Shown here piece by piece: positions 5,533 through 15,285 of a stretch of DNA of 64,000 bases (position 1 is the first letter of the stretch; the number at the start of each line of letters is the position of its first letter). Under the pieces are notes generated by a model. That model did not search any database. It saw nothing but the letters and a program-made list of their open reading frames with translations, and had not been told where the DNA came from. The position numbers were made by a program, and so were the translations under genes. Source of the DNA: Anaerolineaceae bacterium (GTDB lineage: Bacteria > Chloroflexota > Anaerolineae > Anaerolineales > Anaerolineaceae); the NCBI GenBank assembly GCA_019429225.1, contig JAHYJK010000003.1, positions 1-64,000 of the forward strand, given 5' to 3'.

Positions 5533-6108
5533 TTGTTGATGTATCCTTCCTTTTCTAACAGCAAATTTGTAACCAGACAACAGGTTGTTGAATACGCAAA
5601 GAAAAAGATTAAAAGTGATCCAGTCTATCTCGATACCGAAACTACCGGACTTGAAAGCACCGATGAAATTATTGAGATTGCCATTGTCAATTCATTGGGT
5701 GAAGTGATCTTTGAATCCTTTGTAAGACCTCAAAAACCCATTCCGGCTTCCGCTACCGCAATTAACAATATAACGAATGCAATGGTCGCAAATTCCCCCT
5801 CCTGGGCAGAAATTTGGTCCACAATTCGAAATCTCTTGCTGAACCATCCCATCGGCATGTATAATGCGGAATTTGATATTCGGATGATCAAGCAATCTTT
5901 AGAAATCAATAAAATACCAAACACGACCAAATTAAACGCCTTTGATGTTATGAAGGTGTATTCCGATTATATGCGCTCAGATCGAAGATTTCGTTTAGAA
6001 CAAGCCGGAAGAAATCTAGGCATTGTTATTCCTAATTCTCACCGCGCAGCAGATGACACACTCCTAACACGTGCGATCTTCCATAAGATTGCAGGAGAAT
6101 CATATTAG
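5533..6108 (+). CDS. 3'-5' exonuclease, DnaQ/DEDD family
   Basis: YLDTETTGLESTDEIIEIAIV (ExoI), MYNAEFDIRMI (ExoII), HRAADDTLLT (ExoIII). Confidence 0.85.
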   Translation: MLMYPSFSNSKFVTRQQVVEYAKKKIKSDPVYLDTETTGLESTDEIIEIAIVNSLGEVIFESFVRPQKPIPASATAINNITNAMVANSPSWAEIWSTIRNLLLNHPIGMYNAEFDIRMIKQSLEINKIPNTTKLNAFDVMKVYSDYMRSDRRFRLEQAGRNLGIVIPNSHRAADDTLLTRAIFHKIAGESY

Positions 6109-6110
6109 AA

Positions 6111-6797
6111 TTGTTGGATAAAGCATTGATGCCAAAATTTAAATTCAATCGATTACAGTGGGTTGTCCATTTAGGCTCTATTATTCCTTTGCTGGTTTTG
6201 GTTTGGGATGCTTTTTCTAACAATTTAACGGTCAATCCAATCCAGGAAATCACACAAAGAACTGGACGGACAGCCATTATCTGGTTAGTTCTATCATTGG
6301 CTTGTACACCACTCAATATAATTTTTGGACTGCGTCCTTTTAATCAAGTCCGTCGTCCACTTGGTTTATATTCTGCTTTTTATGCAACATTGCACTTTAT
6401 TACTTTTTTAATTTTGGATTACGGATTCAACTTGAATCTAATATGGCAAACGATTATTGAGAAACCTTACATACTTTTAGGTGTTACTGGATTCCTGATT
6501 CTAACCTTGTTAACATTTACTTCCACAAAAAAATCAATGCAAAAGTTAGGTAAAAAATGGAATCAACTTCATCGCCTTGTTTATCTAGCTGCAATTATTC
6601 TATTGTTGCATTTCTTTATGGCCTTAAAATTCATTAACGCCCTCGCTATTGCGATTGCAATTATCCTGGCGAGCCTTCTTCTCATTCGAATCCCTATCAT
6701 TCGAAAGTTTTTCATCAAAAGACAACCTGCCTGGTCACGGCCCGTTAACAATTTTCTTACCGGAAGAAAAAAGAAAACAATAACGATCCAAAAATAG
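6111..6797 (+). CDS. msrQ: Heme-binding membrane protein MsrQ/YedZ-like (ferric reductase-like TM domain)
   Basis: Multiple TM helices; TGRTAIIWLVLSLACTPLN, RRPLGLYSAFYATLHF, LHRLVYLAAIILLLHF motifs. Confidence 0.8.
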   Translation: MLDKALMPKFKFNRLQWVVHLGSIIPLLVLVWDAFSNNLTVNPIQEITQRTGRTAIIWLVLSLACTPLNIIFGLRPFNQVRRPLGLYSAFYATLHFITFLILDYGFNLNLIWQTIIEKPYILLGVTGFLILTLLTFTSTKKSMQKLGKKWNQLHRLVYLAAIILLLHFFMALKFINALAIAIAIILASLLLIRIPIIRKFFIKRQPAWSRPVNNFLTGRKKKTITIQK

Positions 6798-6912: not shown

Positions 6913-9015
6913 ATGCTATTTACAGATTATCAGGAAAAAATTGCCAAACAAGCACTTAAAGGAAGTGTATTCCTCACTGGTTTTGCAGGCAGCGGAAAGA
7001 CGACCATTGGAAAGATTTTTCTGAAATATCTTTTGGAACAGGATACCCCCGGTAATAGGATCCTTGTTTTGGTGCCACAAAAATCTTTGGGGCTCACCTA
7101 TTCAGACTTTTTGGAAAGCATTGAAATTTATAACGGGAACTTACCTGTAATTCAGACCATCAGTGGAATCAGCCAGAAAATTATTCGCTTGTTTTGGCCC
7201 ATCATTGCACCTCAATTTAAATTTAAACATCCCAAATACTACCCCACCTTTTTAAACATTGAATCCGCACAATATTTTATGGCGAAGGTATGTGAACCTT
7301 TTTTTGAAAAGAATTTTTTTTCATCCATAAAGTCCGAAAAACCAAGAATTCTCTCTCAAATCCTCGATAATCTCAATAAATCAGCACTTGTTGGCTTTCC
7401 CCATGAAGAAATAGCAATGCGATTAAAATCTGCCTGGAGTAAGGAAAGTAATCACTTAATTGCTTACGAAGAAGCGCAGGAATGCGCAAACGCTTTCAGA
7501 GATTACTGTCTGGAATTCAACCTCATTGACTTCTCCCTTCAATATGAAATTTCTAATAAGGTCATTCATGAATCATTTTTAATTCAACAATATTTATTCA
7601 ATAGTTATGAATATTTGGTATATGACAATATTGAAGAGGATACCCCATCAGCCCATGACCTCATCTTGAAATGGTTACCAAGGCTTAAATGCGCACTGCT
7701 GATCCAGGATGAAAATGCAGGCTTTCGTTCCTTTTTGGGTGCAGATCCCATCAGTGCTGCCAGGTTATCTAAAAGCTGTCAGGAAATCATTGAGGTCAAT
7801 GATTCGTTTATATCAGACCCACCTATTCAGGAAATAATTTCCATTTATGGAAAAGCGTTATCTCATCAGCCGATTGGTGGAATTTCAGAACCTGGATTTA
7901 AAAGGTTATCATTTCACCACCATAAGTTTTATCCGGATATGATCGACCGTGTCGTGCAACAAATCGATAATTTTATTAATGAGGGAATCGACCCTGGGAA
8001 AATAGCGATTTTGGCACCATTTGTTAGTAATGCTCTGCGTTTCCAAATCCAACAAAGGATGAATGAAAAAAATATCAAATTGGTTACGCATCGCCCTTCT
8101 CGCAGTTTACGAGAGGAATCAATTACGCATGGCTTGATTTCGTGGACAAAACTGGCTTACCCGGAGTGGGGTCTATCACCTTCCATTTATCAATTCCGAA
8201 CAGCAATTACACAGACGATCGGGAATATGGATCCCATTCGTGCTGATTTATTGTCGCGTATTGTCTTATCCAAAAATACTACTTTTGCACTGCGTCCAAT
8301 GGATGATGTCCGTCCTGAAATGTTGGAAAGAATCACAATCCAGGCAGTATTTCAATATCAGAAAATTTTTTCCTGGTTAATGAATTACCAGAATAACAAA
8401 TCTGAAATGGATGTTTTTTTGGCGAGTTTTTTTGGAGAAATTTTGTCTCAACCCGGATTTGGTTTTCACGAAAATTATGAAGGTGCAGAAATTACTGGCC
8501 GATTGATTGAATCCATGCAAAATTTTAGAAAGAATACTTATTCACATTTTCAAAAAACAGGCGAAAATTGGGCTCTGGATTACATCACCATGTTGGAAAA
8601 TGGTCTTATATCTGCTTTGTATTTGCAAACCTGGGATTTACCTCCGCAGGATGCAGTATATCTGGCACCAGCCCATACATTTTTAATGCAAAACAGACCT
8701 GTCGAAATTCAGTTTTGGTTGGATATAGGCAATATGGGTTGGTGGCAAAGGTTAATGCAACCACTTACCCAACCCTATGTTTTATCAAGAAATTGGATCG
8801 ATGGATTGAAATGGACTGATATCCATGAGTACGAAAATAATCAGAAAAATTTAGAGAAATTAATCAGTGGATTATTGCTTCGCTGTTCGGGCAACCTCAT
8901 TCTTCATACAATCGGATACAACGAAAATGGCGATGAACAAACAGGTCCGCTCCTGAAAGCCACGCAAAGGATCTTGCGGACATATCATCGCCAGATTGGG
9001 CATCAAAATGTTTAG
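6913..9015 (+). CDS. AddB/RecC-like degenerate SF1 helicase
   Basis: Walker A GFAGSGKTT; motif II position reads LVYDNIEED rather than DExQ; motif III-like LLIQDENAGFRSFLGADP; directly upstream of an intact UvrD-like helicase. Confidence 0.65.
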   Translation: MLFTDYQEKIAKQALKGSVFLTGFAGSGKTTIGKIFLKYLLEQDTPGNRILVLVPQKSLGLTYSDFLESIEIYNGNLPVIQTISGISQKIIRLFWPIIAPQFKFKHPKYYPTFLNIESAQYFMAKVCEPFFEKNFFSSIKSEKPRILSQILDNLNKSALVGFPHEEIAMRLKSAWSKESNHLIAYEEAQECANAFRDYCLEFNLIDFSLQYEISNKVIHESFLIQQYLFNSYEYLVYDNIEEDTPSAHDLILKWLPRLKCALLIQDENAGFRSFLGADPISAARLSKSCQEIIEVNDSFISDPPIQEIISIYGKALSHQPIGGISEPGFKRLSFHHHKFYPDMIDRVVQQIDNFINEGIDPGKIAILAPFVSNALRFQIQQRMNEKNIKLVTHRPSRSLREESITHGLISWTKLAYPEWGLSPSIYQFRTAITQTIGNMDPIRADLLSRIVLSKNTTFALRPMDDVRPEMLERITIQAVFQYQKIFSWLMNYQNNKSEMDVFLASFFGEILSQPGFGFHENYEGAEITGRLIESMQNFRKNTYSHFQKTGENWALDYITMLENGLISALYLQTWDLPPQDAVYLAPAHTFLMQNRPVEIQFWLDIGNMGWWQRLMQPLTQPYVLSRNWIDGLKWTDIHEYENNQKNLEKLISGLLLRCSGNLILHTIGYNENGDEQTGPLLKATQRILRTYHRQIGHQNV

Positions 9016-11257
9016 ACCAAGGCCAAAACAACTGGAGATTCTAAAATATACCAGTGGGAAAATGGGAATTTCTGCGGTTCCTGGAAGTGGAAAAACACAG
9101 ACCTTATCTTATCTGGCCGCCAATTTGCTGTTTGAAGGCAAAATTGAAGATGACCAGGAAATCCTGGTTGTTACATTGGTGAATGCAGCCGTCAATAATT
9201 TTTCTACTCGAATCTCAGGTTTTATGGAATCATTCGGTTTACTTCCCGGGGTGGGATATCGCGTCAGAACATTACATGGCTTGGCGCATGATATCGTAAG
9301 AGAACGACCTGATCTTGTTGGTTTAGGAAACGAATTTGAAATTATTGATGAACGTGAGACAAACCAAATCCTGGATACTTCTGTCGAAAGCTGGTTAAAA
9401 CGAAATCCAAATTTTATTGATCGTTGGGGTAAACCGGATTATACAAATAACTTAAGTCGGAATCAGAAATCAGATTGGCAATCTGCTATTTCATCTGTCT
9501 GTACAAATTTCATTCGCACAGCAAAAGATCTTCAATTATCACCCCAGGAAATTTATAAAAGATTATCAGAGCTTAAAATTGATGACTCTTTATTAAACCT
9601 GGGTGCAGATATTTATGAAGACTATCAAAGAGCATTGAATTATCGATCAGCTGTTGATTTTGATGATTTAATTCGTCTGGCTCTTATGTCCTTACAGATT
9701 GATCCAGATTATTTAAACCGGTTGAGATATCAATGGCCATACATCCTTGAAGATGAAGCTCAGGATAGCAGTCGTTTACAGGAAGTGATTTTACAAACGC
9801 TAGTTGGAGAAAACGGTAATTGGGTGCGTGTTGGTGATCCAAACCAGGCAATATTTGAATCATTCACCACGGCTAGTCCTGAATATTTAAAAAAATTCCT
9901 TGCCCATCCTGAGGTAAGCTCGAAAACACTGCCAAATTCGGGTCGATCTACACAATCTATCATCAATCTTGCCAATGAATTAATTCGCTGGACAAATCAA
10001 AATCACCCCAACCGTGCATTACGAAATTCATTAACAAAGCCATTCATTGAACCCACCCCGAAATATGACCCTCAGCCCAACCCGGAAGACCACCCAGAGA
10101 AGATTATTCTGTTTGGTAAGGCACAATCATCCGAACAGGAAATTAAGAGTGTGATTGTTTCTTTGGGTAAGTGGTTACCAGTAAGTACTGATAGTACAGT
10201 GGCTGTACTTGTTCCCCGAAATTTCAGAGGTGGAAAAATTGTCGAAGCCCTGCAGAAAGAAAAAATCCCTTATGTTGAAATTTTACAAACCAGCCAATCG
10301 ACCAGAAACACTGCTGCTATTCTGGCTTCGATTCTGAATTTTTTAGAAAGCCCAAATCAGACCACGCGACTCATAAAAATATTTGACTTCCTATCACGAA
10401 TCAAATTTTCAATATCGAGACAGACCAGGGAAGAAATTGTCAAGCTGATTCGAACATGTAATTATCTAGAAGAATTCTTGTTCCCTGTCCCGGATCATGA
10501 TTGGATACAGCATTTATTAGGTCAAAAAAAACCACCTGAAAATGATAAGGTTCAAATTTTGCTTGAATTCAGAACCCAATTATCAAGATGGTTAAAAGCA
10601 GCCGATTTACCAATACACCAAATTATTATCACGATCAGCCAGGAATTATTTGAAAAACCAGCCGATTTAGCCCTGGCACACAAATTGGCACTCATACTTG
10701 AACAATATGCGAAAAACCATCCTGATTGGTTGCTGCCTCAGTTTGCTGAAGAATTAACATTAATAGCCGAAAACCGCAGAAAACTACAGGGATTTTCTGA
10801 CGAGGAGGCCGGCTTTAATCCTGAAATGCACAAAGGTAAAGTCGTCGTCACAACATACCACAAAGCCAAAGGGCTGGAGTGGGATCGGGTTTATTTGATG
10901 TCAGTAAACGATTATGATTTTCCTTCGGCATCGATAGGAGATCATTTTATATCAGAAAAACATATCTACAAAGATGAAATTAACCTGGAAGCAGAAATAA
11001 ATCAAAAACTTAAGGCATTGGCTGAAAGCAATCTTGAAAACCTCTACCTGGAATATGGGCTCGCAACCGAACAAGCCAGATTAGAGTATGCAGCAGAAAG
11101 AATTCGTCTGTTTTTTGTTGGAATTACTAGAGCAAAAAAGGAATTGATCATTACCTGGAATACAGGTGATACGCATCATAAAAACAGGAAAAATGCCAAT
11201 CCTTCCATACCTTTCTTAGCATTATCAGCTTTTTGGGAGAAACAAAATGAAATTTGA
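8996..11257 (+). CDS. UvrD/PcrA/AddA-like superfamily 1 DNA helicase
   Basis: AVPGSGKTQTL (Walker A), YILEDEAQDSS (motif II), VRVGDPNQAIFESF (III), TTYHKAKGLEWDRVYL (V), LFFVGITRAKKEL (VI). Confidence 0.9.
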   Translation: MGIKMFRPRPKQLEILKYTSGKMGISAVPGSGKTQTLSYLAANLLFEGKIEDDQEILVVTLVNAAVNNFSTRISGFMESFGLLPGVGYRVRTLHGLAHDIVRERPDLVGLGNEFEIIDERETNQILDTSVESWLKRNPNFIDRWGKPDYTNNLSRNQKSDWQSAISSVCTNFIRTAKDLQLSPQEIYKRLSELKIDDSLLNLGADIYEDYQRALNYRSAVDFDDLIRLALMSLQIDPDYLNRLRYQWPYILEDEAQDSSRLQEVILQTLVGENGNWVRVGDPNQAIFESFTTASPEYLKKFLAHPEVSSKTLPNSGRSTQSIINLANELIRWTNQNHPNRALRNSLTKPFIEPTPKYDPQPNPEDHPEKIILFGKAQSSEQEIKSVIVSLGKWLPVSTDSTVAVLVPRNFRGGKIVEALQKEKIPYVEILQTSQSTRNTAAILASILNFLESPNQTTRLIKIFDFLSRIKFSISRQTREEIVKLIRTCNYLEEFLFPVPDHDWIQHLLGQKKPPENDKVQILLEFRTQLSRWLKAADLPIHQIIITISQELFEKPADLALAHKLALILEQYAKNHPDWLLPQFAEELTLIAENRRKLQGFSDEEAGFNPEMHKGKVVVTTYHKAKGLEWDRVYLMSVNDYDFPSASIGDHFISEKHIYKDEINLEAEINQKLKALAESNLENLYLEYGLATEQARLEYAAERIRLFFVGITRAKKELIITWNTGDTHHKNRKNANPSIPFLALSAFWEKQNEI

Positions 11258-12068
11258 TTATTCTCAGAACAAGCTTCATGATTACCTGGAATGTCCCCGC
11301 AGATTTGAATTGCGGTATCTTTTACAAAGAATTTGGCCAGCGGTGCACTCAGAACCTGTTCTCGAAATGGAAGAGCAAATCAATAATGGAAAAATCTTTC
11401 ACCTTATGGCGCAACAATATTTCAGTGGCATTCATCCGGATGTCATCCTTATGCAGGTTGAAAATGAAAAAATTTCCACCTGGTGGAAAGAATTTCTCAG
11501 ATTTGCGGAATCATACAATAACTTACCTCATCAATCCGAGGTATTGATTTCTTCAAAAATTAATAATAAAAGCTTTATAGGTGTTTTTGATTTACTGGTG
11601 TACTCGCCAGGAGAGAAAAATACCATCATAGATTGGAAAACTAATCACCTCAGACCATCCAGGAAAAATTTGGAACAGCATATACAAACACGCCTTTATC
11701 CATTGTTATTAACTTCAGGCGGAAAACAATGGAACAATAACAATGAAATTCAACCCGATCAAATTGAGATGATTTATTGGTTTGCCAATTATCCAGATGA
11801 ACCGCAATCATTTTTATATTCCGAACAACAATATCAATCAGATCTAAATTTTATTAAGGATTTGATCAACCAAATTGAAACAACAAATTTAGGAGATTTT
11901 CCATTAACCGATCATCAAAATCGATGTAATTACTGCAATTATCGTTCTCTTTGTGGTCGTGGGTCAAAACCTGGCTCAGCAGAGGAACTTGATACTTTAG
12001 ATTTAGAATTTCTTTACGAAGAAATAGAAGAGATTGATATGAAACAAATTGGAGATATTGCTTTTTAA
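11247..12068 (+). CDS. PD-(D/E)XK nuclease, Cas4/RecB/AddB-type with Fe-S cysteines
   Basis: DYLECPRRFELRYL, GVFDLLVYSPGEKNTIIDWKT (GxxD...DWK nuclease motif), CNYCNYRSLC cysteine cluster. Confidence 0.85.
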   Translation: MKFDYSQNKLHDYLECPRRFELRYLLQRIWPAVHSEPVLEMEEQINNGKIFHLMAQQYFSGIHPDVILMQVENEKISTWWKEFLRFAESYNNLPHQSEVLISSKINNKSFIGVFDLLVYSPGEKNTIIDWKTNHLRPSRKNLEQHIQTRLYPLLLTSGGKQWNNNNEIQPDQIEMIYWFANYPDEPQSFLYSEQQYQSDLNFIKDLINQIETTNLGDFPLTDHQNRCNYCNYRSLCGRGSKPGSAEELDTLDLEFLYEEIEEIDMKQIGDIAF

Positions 12069-12070
12069 TC

Positions 12071-14386
12071 ATGGCAACGTATCAATGGGTAGAAAAGAAA
12101 AAAAGTCCAATCCCAAAGGAAATCCAGGAAAAATTTTCCAATCCGTGGGTCCAACAGATATTAGTCTGTAATAATGTCTTCAATTTTGAAACAGCACAAA
12201 GATTTATTAACCCCTCGCTTTATATTCCGACTTCGTCTGCAGAATTACCGGATCTTGATATAGCAGCCCAACGATTACTGAAAGCCATTTCAAACCAGGA
12301 ATTAATTGGAATTTGGGGTGATTTTGACGTGGATGGCCAAACAGCTACCACGGTATTGTTTGAAGGTCTGCGAAATCTGGGAGCAAATGTAATTTACTAC
12401 ATTCCCGTTCGCTCAAAAGAATCTCACGGGATTAAGTTAAGTTCTTTAAAGGAATTTCTCAAAAACGGAATTTCTATCCTTTTGACATGTGACACTGGCA
12501 TCAGTGAACATGAATCAATTGAATATGCCAACCAACAGGGTGTAGATGTTCTGATCACAGATCACCACAGCTTGCCAGAAATCCTTCCCAACGCCATGGC
12601 AAAAGTTAACCCACAGCGTTTACCAGAAGCACATCCCTTAAGAACACTATCAGGTGTAGGTGTGGCGTACAAACTCATTGAATGGTTGTATCAATTATCC
12701 GGTAACAATGAAAATTACGTTACTTTGTTGGATTTAGTTGCTCTTGGTACAGTTGCCGATGTGGCAATTCTGACCGGAGAAAATCGTTACCTTGTCCAAA
12801 TGGGGTTAAGACTTTTACAAAATCCGGCGAGAATTGGCTTACAGGAAATTTATAAAAACCGAAAACTCCAGAATGGTCAAATTACAGAAACTCATATTGG
12901 ATTTTATCTCGCACCCCTATTGAACGCGCTCGGTCGATTATCCGATGCCAATCCGATTGTTGAATTTCTGACAACCAACGATCTGCAAAAAGCAAAAGTA
13001 TTTGCCGCACAATTAGAAAATATTAACGAACGACGTAAATTAATTACTGAGCAAATAACCGAAGCAATTCTTTCAAAATTTGAACAAAATAAAGAACTAC
13101 AGAATCAACCAGCAATCATCATGCACCATCCGGATTGGGAAGCAGGTGTTCTCGGTATTGTAGCCAATCGCCTGGTTGAGATGTATCAGAAACCTACAAT
13201 TTTATTATCAGGGAATGATGATTCTGGCTATTTCGGTTCAGCGCGTTCCATTGAGAAATTAAATATCATTCAGGCAATTCAGGAAAATGCAGATTACCTT
13301 AAACACTTTGGAGGACACGCAATGGCTGCTGGCCTCTCCCTGGAAGCGGATAAATTATCATCATTCCAGGCTGGTTTTTACAAAACAGTCCTGAATGTAG
13401 TGGGTGACACCATTTTTCAAAAAGAGTTACAAATTGATGGATATATCAATTTTGATTTGATCACGAAGGATTTTGTGCGAGAATTGGAAAAATTAGCACC
13501 TTTTGGTCCTGGTAACCCAGCTCCATTATTTGCCAGCAAAAATGTAATCATTGAGAAAATCCGGAAAATGGGCAGAAAATCGGAACACTTGAAAATTACA
13601 GCTGCAGATGCGCTCAAAAATATTCAGGAATTGATTTGGTGGCGTGCCAATCAGGAGGATTTCCCTGACGAAAAAATTGATATTGCCTACCATTTACATA
13701 GTTCAAACTTTCAGGGCAAACCGAGTGTTCAGGTTGAAATATTAGCCATTCAACCCAGTGAAAAAACGTTGTTTGAGATTAGAACAAAAAATGAAGAACT
13801 TGAAGTTATTGATTATCGAAAGAATCATCCTGAAAATCAAGAATGGCTCGAAAAATATGACGATATCCTCTGGTATCAGGAAGGGCTGAAGCAGGATTTT
13901 TCACCTGCTCAAAATCGTCTCAATTTACATCCAGCTGATACATTAATCATTTTTACGATTCCACCAAACTTAATAGAATTACAGAAAGTGTACATAACAG
14001 TTCGCCCAAAGCATCTGGTTCTTTTTGGAAATGAACCACTTGAAAAATCCGTGAACCTGGTGATTAAAACAATAATTGGCATGCTAAACCACGTAATCAA
14101 TAAACAAAGCGGTCTATTTCAGCCAATTGATATTGCAGCTGCAACAGGACAGCGAAAAACAATGGTAGAAACAGTCTGCAGATACTTACATGCAATCGGT
14201 CAAATAACTTTGCTGGAGCATCCTGATACACAATGGAAGATTAAACCTGGAGGAGAAAAAGATGCAATTAAAGCAGGGTTATATGAACAAAATATAAAAT
14301 TTTTACACAGGGAAACCCTTGCATTTTATGAATGGTTTAAAGAGGTAGATCTGGATAAAATGAAAAAATCTTTGCTTGATTTTTAA
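12071..14386 (+). CDS. recJ: Single-stranded-DNA-specific exonuclease RecJ
   Basis: GIWGDFDVDGQTATTVL, LLTCDTGISEH, LITDHHSLPE, FGGHAMAAGLSL; long C-terminal extension with winged-helix-like tail. Confidence 0.93.
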   Translation: MATYQWVEKKKSPIPKEIQEKFSNPWVQQILVCNNVFNFETAQRFINPSLYIPTSSAELPDLDIAAQRLLKAISNQELIGIWGDFDVDGQTATTVLFEGLRNLGANVIYYIPVRSKESHGIKLSSLKEFLKNGISILLTCDTGISEHESIEYANQQGVDVLITDHHSLPEILPNAMAKVNPQRLPEAHPLRTLSGVGVAYKLIEWLYQLSGNNENYVTLLDLVALGTVADVAILTGENRYLVQMGLRLLQNPARIGLQEIYKNRKLQNGQITETHIGFYLAPLLNALGRLSDANPIVEFLTTNDLQKAKVFAAQLENINERRKLITEQITEAILSKFEQNKELQNQPAIIMHHPDWEAGVLGIVANRLVEMYQKPTILLSGNDDSGYFGSARSIEKLNIIQAIQENADYLKHFGGHAMAAGLSLEADKLSSFQAGFYKTVLNVVGDTIFQKELQIDGYINFDLITKDFVRELEKLAPFGPGNPAPLFASKNVIIEKIRKMGRKSEHLKITAADALKNIQELIWWRANQEDFPDEKIDIAYHLHSSNFQGKPSVQVEILAIQPSEKTLFEIRTKNEELEVIDYRKNHPENQEWLEKYDDILWYQEGLKQDFSPAQNRLNLHPADTLIIFTIPPNLIELQKVYITVRPKHLVLFGNEPLEKSVNLVIKTIIGMLNHVINKQSGLFQPIDIAAATGQRKTMVETVCRYLHAIGQITLLEHPDTQWKIKPGGEKDAIKAGLYEQNIKFLHRETLAFYEWFKEVDLDKMKKSLLDF

Positions 14387-14833: not shown

Positions 14834-14889
14834 CATTTGTTGTATGGATGTAGTGAGTGCTGGTTAATCGAACCCAGTTGGAGTTGTTG

Positions 14890-15285
14890 ATGAGTAGAGG
14901 TTTGAATAAAGTCATGCTAATTGGATACCTGGGACGCGATCCTGAGATGCGGGTAACTCCCTCAGGACGGGCAGTGACGACATTTGTTATTGCCTGCAAT
15001 CGATCCTGGAATTCTTCTGATGGTGAACGCCATCTTGAAACCGAATGGTTCAATGTTGTGACCTGGGGAAATCTCGCTGAGATTTGTAAACAATATCTAT
15101 TCAAAGGCTTACAGGTTTACATCGAAGGACGGCTCCAGTCCAGACGCTGGGAGGATACAGAAGGTTGTAAACATACCAGTGTGGAAATAGTCGCCTCAGA
15201 GATGATGATCCTGGGAGATCGAAAAGAGATCAACGCTCAAACTCCTCCATCTACACTTGAAGTAAATGATAATTATTCCGTATAG
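14890..15285 (+). CDS. ssb: Single-stranded DNA-binding protein
   Basis: [33 protein letters not shown] fold; ATG at 14890. Confidence 0.93.

Follow-up and report, generated by a model that had tools for sequence, protein, structure and literature searches.

We have described here a four-gene module encoded within a 64,000-nucleotide stretch of DNA from an Anaerolineaceae bacterium (the window; GenBank assembly GCA_019429225.1, contig JAHYJK010000003.1, positions 1 to 64,000). An inactivated helicase-like protein (g1), an intact helicase (g2), and a stand-alone iron-sulphur (Fe-S) nuclease (g3) are followed by a second, long RecJ (recJ2). The four genes are co-inherited as a module, and the module has been transferred between phyla as a four-gene unit. 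We consider it probable that these genes specify a machine dedicated to the processing of DNA ends, similar to AddAB and AdnAB, with one nuclease and a RecJ of its own. The genes and the predicted tail of the nuclease are arranged as follows (SF1A, superfamily 1A; aa, amino acids).

g1, 6913..9015, forward strand: 700-aa inactivated SF1A helicase-like protein, without a nuclease
g2, 9008..11257, forward strand: intact SF1A (UvrD-like) helicase of about 750 aa, without a nuclease
g3, 11247..12068, forward strand: 273-aa stand-alone PD-(D/E)XK nuclease with Fe-S cysteines
g3 C-terminal tail, 11967..12065, forward strand: disordered and acidic, about residues 241-273; predicted docking tail
recJ (recJ2), 12071..14386, forward strand: 771 aa, with a DHH/DHHA1/OB core and a roughly 200-aa C-terminal extension

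An earlier note on this DNA had proposed four overlapping or abutting genes, and all four open reading frames are present. The 11-nt overlap of g2 and g3 and the 2-nt gap between g3 and recJ are as it had reported, but the overlap of g1 and g2 is 8 nt rather than 20 nt, because the start codon conserved in g2 is the ATG at 9008, whereas the mechanically called reading frame (8996-11257, 753 aa) begins at a TTG. The overlaps recur in other genomes with both genes on one locus, between g1 and g2 in 29 of 35 and between g2 and g3 in 28 of 33. A contig profile scan of genomes was used to name the best 80 of 566 confirmed loci, all 80 of which are from Chloroflexota, and the nearest named relatives of the locus among them are HGW-Chloroflexi-2 and -3. 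Where these named loci have enough flanking sequence, g1 is adjacent to g2 in 46 of 62, g2 to g3 in 47 of 61, and g3 to recJ in 30 of 48.

The g1 protein has only sub-threshold matches to UvrD/DEAD and P-loop families, with no match in NCBIfam and none above the Pfam cut-off, and its confident AlphaFold2 model (predicted local distance difference test score, pLDDT, 89.4) shows a complete SF1A helicase fold throughout, with the best template modelling (TM) scores to AdnB (0.68) and AddB (0.62-0.63). The earlier note had read g1 as a degenerate SF1 protein lacking its own nuclease, and had named structure prediction as the check; no nuclease domain is found in either the sequence or the model. 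Walker A is intact (K29 in 38 of 38 sequences), the catalytic glutamate of motif II is replaced by asparagine (N239 in 37 of 38), and the motif III glutamine and motif IV arginine are not recognisable. Because Walker A is kept and the motif II position is asparagine, g1 likely binds ATP without hydrolysing it efficiently. There is also a conserved C-terminal block around QFWLDIG..GWW.RL.QPLT.PYVLSR.W. Profile alignment (hhalign) of g1 with AddB gives an E value of 1.4e-10 over 529 columns, and with g2 an E value of 3e-12, such that g1 is equally related to both.

In agreement with its description as an intact SF1 helicase devoid of a nuclease, g2 matches the UvrD N (E 1e-44) and UvrD C (E 3e-25) domains only and ends just after motif VI, and all of the motor residues checked are invariant in 35 of 35 sequences. 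Profile alignment with AddA is strong (E 3.4e-37), but g2 scores 67.6 bits against the AddA family TIGR02785, for which the cut-off is 707.65, and its profile scores are higher for PcrA/UvrD/Rep than for AddA. In a phylogenetic tree g2 forms a distinct clade (100/100) outside both AddA/RecB and PcrA/UvrD/Rep. These sequence comparisons place g2 in an SF1A lineage of its own and not as a split AddA, and the 'split AddAB' origin offered previously is not supported; since g2 lies outside AddA/RecB, the term describes a likeness and not a descent.

The g3 product matches PDDEXK_1 (E 1e-26), and the RecB-family catalytic residues H52, D115, D129, K131, Q147, and Y151 are each kept in all 37 sequences compared. 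It had been described as a single separate PD-(D/E)XK nuclease with a CxxCxxxxxC cluster, which is borne out (C227, C230, and C236), and C16 supplies a fourth cysteine that completes an AddB-type Fe-S set; all four cysteines are invariant in the same 37 sequences. Profile alignment to the AddB nuclease domain, cysteines included, gives an E value of 4.5e-9, and structural matches to the model include AdnA, Cas4-family nucleases, Exo5, Dna2, and AddB. Past residue 240 the protein is disordered (pLDDT < 50) and acidic, and then ends with a conserved peptide, which is IDMKQIGDIAF in the window, typically xDFDQIGEIxF, and DLDDVEEIEF in Salinibacter; the pattern, with a final F or Y, is present in 31 of 37 sequences. 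We predict that this segment is a docking tail.

The distribution of the module was followed in three samples: 61 relatives (the order sample), 201 genomes of the class Anaerolineae, and 299 phylum-wide Chloroflexota genomes. Full-length g1 is present in 42 of the 61 relatives and, as a strong match (E < 1e-50), in 135 of the 201 class genomes; no strong match was found outside Anaerolineae in the phylum-wide sample, where the matches in other Chloroflexota classes are short and for the most part fall in the N-terminal P-loop region. g3 is likewise found in 42 of the 61 relatives, 40 of them in common with g1, and across the class it is present in 125 of 135 genomes with g1 versus none of 66 without (Fisher 9e-43). 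Both genes are kept even where they lie far apart on single contigs, by 1.2 Mb (G118) and 3.1 Mb (G246). All module genes are under purifying selection (ratios of nonsynonymous to synonymous substitution of 0.06-0.18), and pairwise distances among g1, g2, g3, and RecJ are correlated (r 0.72-0.90). The locus is thus strongly conserved in Anaerolineae, as a check of synteny had been proposed to establish. Cultured carriers include Longilinea, Bellilinea, Ornatilinea, Anaerolinea, and Salinibacter ruber M8. No module match was found in 50,697 phage records or in IMG/VR contigs, and a phage or viral origin was rejected on that basis. Two genomes of one genus (G074 and G129; loci L182 and L183) have g1 and g2 in one frame with a single TAG stop between them, and these candidate natural fusions are actually g1-stop-g2; a 1,320-aa upstream fusion in G079 proved to be a GC-rich spurious N-terminal frame.

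The fourth gene was correctly identified as RecJ, scoring 518.9 bits against TIGR00644 (cut-off 396.9). All 61 relatives encode a RecJ, of about 565 aa where complete, and a second, long RecJ of about 770 aa is present in 39 of 44 module carriers versus none of 17 non-carriers (5e-11), including five carriers (G026, G033, G047, G056, and G060) that have it away from g3. The genome of the window has both, the 771-aa form on contig C128 and a housekeeping form of about 560 aa on contig C181. A RecJ tree with 85 rows groups the long forms in a single clade with full support, to which neither the housekeeping copies of these genomes nor the RecJs of other phyla belong. The co-occurrence, the separate clade, and the presence of the four-gene block in another phylum support the long RecJ as a genuine member of the module, distinct from the housekeeping RecJ.

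That other phylum is Rhodothermota, in which plasmid pSR56 of Salinibacter ruber M8 (NC_014028.1) has the four genes in unchanged order (g1-g2-g3-recJ; WP_013060222 to WP_013060225), with protein identities of 35, 41, 33, and 36% respectively. Its g1 and g2 nest among those of Anaerolineae. Its RecJ groups within the clade of long RecJs, and no other plasmid-borne RecJ matches over 80% or more of the query. The Salinibacter copy has also retained its catalytic residues and the tail of g3. Also present on the plasmid (L222 / L280) are a type I restriction system, a DpdF-like helicase, an RmrA-like XRE/IrrE regulator, PDC-S14 and HEC-05 candidates, BrnT/BrnA, and dinB. An Ilyobacter plasmid match has 19% identity and is a single gene without partners, and we treated it as a distant SF1 relative.

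A check for canonical AddAB elsewhere in the genome had also been proposed, with its presence, together with lack of conservation of this locus, to count against the proposal. AddAB is present, although the locus is conserved. The assembly amounts to 4.2 Mb in 368 contigs (97.9% complete, 4.2% contamination); the window is on C128, and AddAB is spread over three other contigs: C79 with the AddB helicase part, C64 with the AddB Fe-S nuclease and the start of AddA, and C261 with the AddA C-terminus and its nuclease. These contigs are not contamination, because genomes of the same genus carry intact AddAB, and nor is that of the window, because its gene order, at 87-95% identity, is common to them. 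The module is therefore not the only such enzyme in this genome. Across the class, 53 genomes have the module and AddB, 82 the module only, 23 AddB only, and 43 neither (p 0.64); about 60% of carriers lack AddB (27 of 44 in the order sample, 82 of 135 in the class), and Longilinea arvoryzae, Bellilinea caldifistulae, and Ornatilinea apprima (G036, G010, and G018) have the module and no AddAB. Replacement of AddAB by mutual exclusion is not borne out, as the two show no association (p 0.37 in the order, 0.64 in the class). No RecC (PF04257) was found in carriers among the 61 relatives. The only PF04257 (RecC-type) match there is in a non-carrier (G050:C29:63383-64240), which together with G012 is also the only genome without any PDDEXK_1 match. 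Two genomes of the window's genus, G001 and G002, have two AddB genes each (L082-L084; G001:C8; G002:C45, C63) besides the module.

The nature of these proteins suggests a plausible model. g1, g2, and g3 most likely form a heterotrimer similar to AddAB or AdnAB with a single nuclease, and the proposal of a multi-chain, one-nuclease helicase-nuclease unit in the earlier note is supported. The g2 motor would enter at a double-strand end and translocate 3'-5' on one strand, while g1 would bind ATP, hydrolyse it poorly, and guide the other strand, and it may recognise a regulatory sequence in the manner of AddB and RecC. Docked via its C-terminal tail, g3 would cut the unwound strand or strands, and RecJ2 would next digest the 5'-ended strand, so that either a 3' single strand remains for RecA or the whole molecule is lost. 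End processing is the likely activity, and we infer that repair, over removal of foreign DNA, is the more probable main role.

Several observations weigh against this interpretation. Five carriers (G014, G015, G021, G023, and G042), some of them incomplete, do not have the long RecJ, and several families have g1 alone or an unlinked g3. The Salinibacter copy lies amid restriction and other defence genes. The occurrence of AddAB is statistically independent of the module, which is thus not simply a replacement for it, and the AddB-like role of g1 is drawn by analogy, since g1 resembles g2 no less than it resembles AddB.

Other explanations must be considered, among them that the same combination of helicase, nuclease, and RecJ serves to break down plasmid, phage, or transforming DNA that enters the cell and does not repair the chromosome, in line with the 'defence-like system' raised in the earlier note. 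The pSR56 block, with an RmrA-like XRE/IrrE regulator, type I restriction, a DpdF-like helicase, and putative defence genes beside it, is consistent with such a defence role, as is the independence from AddAB, and in Synechococcus elongatus, with a similar parts list likened by part type, loss of uvrD, of a second recJ (recJcy), or of a PD-(D/E)XK gene each favours RSF1010 plasmids and transformation (PMC10653904). We nonetheless think defence the less likely main role, although a serious rival, as two thirds of the genomes in an entire class have the module and its genes diverge in a correlated way; it also has no dedicated PADLOC family and is absent from the phage and IMG/VR collections searched. 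Its Anaerolineae neighbours are moreover housekeeping or metabolic genes, those for the single-stranded DNA-binding protein (SSB) and SMC in the window's family and transporters, UPF0029, and peptidases elsewhere, and no wide defence-island context was found in Anaerolineae at the sampled loci.

RecJ is active at stalled replication forks in other bacteria, and a complex for fork or gap repair, with fork processing of the UvrD/Rep and RecJ kind in place of action at double-strand ends, would suit the profile scores of g2, which are nearest PcrA/UvrD/Rep, and the SSB and SMC genes next to the window locus. However, the combination of an inactive partner and an Fe-S nuclease fits the anatomy of AddAB and AdnAB and of no known fork helicase complex, and we regard the fork explanation as rather improbable. 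Simple fission of AddAB, with g1 and g3 together equivalent to AddB and g2 to AddA minus its nuclease, accounts for the profile alignments of all three proteins, but it is very improbable given the separate clade of g2 and its higher PcrA/UvrD/Rep scores, the equal similarity of g1 to g2 and AddB, and the coexistence of intact AddAB in the same genomes. A dedicated end-processing machine is the explanation that we favor.

The surroundings of the module include a further exonuclease gene upstream, a possible local accessory that is outside the class-wide core.

DEDDh exonuclease (DnaQ-like, RNase_T), 5533..6108, forward strand

Many members of the family have this gene directly before g1, and it abuts or overlaps it in G010, G014, G024, and G031, so that the operon in those relatives may also hold a 3'-5' exonuclease. 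In the window the two are separated by a gene for a ferric-reductase-like membrane protein (6111-6797), which precedes g1 in the window's genus and a few relatives (L044, L048, and L053) and is probably unrelated to the module. An SSB gene (14857-15285) follows recJ; in the window's genus its product ends in NDNYSV, which departs from the acidic YPF/FPF end of related families.

RecBCD, AddAB, or AdnAB is found in 88% of bacterial genomes surveyed (PMC6452273), and the module, which is partly annotated as 'hypothetical', could close this gap in a large class of environmental bacteria. The four-protein module is apparently undescribed, and literature searches, which covered open-access papers only, found no description of it. 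We suggest tentatively, and with slightly less than even confidence, that it may represent a further class of double-strand-end machine beside these three, with three chains, one nuclease, and a dedicated RecJ that is obligatory. It would then be the sole enzyme of this kind in many Anaerolineae and could move across phyla as a four-gene cassette. Because the inactive partner, motor, and nuclease are on separate chains, each function is removable on its own, and the tying of a RecJ paralogue to an AddAB-like machine makes the proposed exonuclease hand-over directly testable, cultured carriers being available.

In outline the module resembles AddAB and AdnAB without qualifying as either. Gabija can be set aside, as the GajB matches reflect shared SF1A motifs and no GajA-type (OLD ATPase-TOPRIM) neighbour is present among the examined window open reading frames. 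UvrD-Cas4 fusions, and the unfused UvrD and Cas4-like pairs noted in Clostridiales (Hudaiberdiev 2017, PMC5704561), similarly join an SF1 helicase with a PF12705 nuclease, although the parts of that study dealing with the pairs describe no inactive helicase partner or dedicated RecJ. The S. elongatus UvrD, RecJcy, and PD-(D/E)XK protein (Synpcc7942_0992) are the same kinds of parts, likened by part type only, and no g1 is reported with them (PMC10653904). RecBCD shares a single nuclease and an inactive helicase-like partner (RecC), but the module has no RecD-type gene in the block, its nuclease is not fused to the motor, and it has no PF04257 match. The SF1A fold is common to actinobacterial AdnAB, where AdnB gives the best structural match to g1 and AdnA one of the best to g3, although AdnA and AdnB each combine helicase and nuclease, and the system has neither a separate nuclease nor a RecJ. 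There is also a likeness in parts to AddAB (RexAB), with an inactive SF1 partner, an active SF1 motor, a four-cysteine Fe-S PD-(D/E)XK nuclease of the AddB type, which g3 is, and profile matches between g1 and AddB, g2 and AddA, and g3 and the AddB nuclease. However, AddA is an SF1A helicase with a C-terminal nuclease that g2 lacks, and AddB is a degenerate helicase fused to the Fe-S nuclease that here is a separate gene from g1. The module therefore differs from AddAB, with which it coexists in some genomes, in having its only nuclease on a chain of its own, a motor of another lineage, and a dedicated RecJ.

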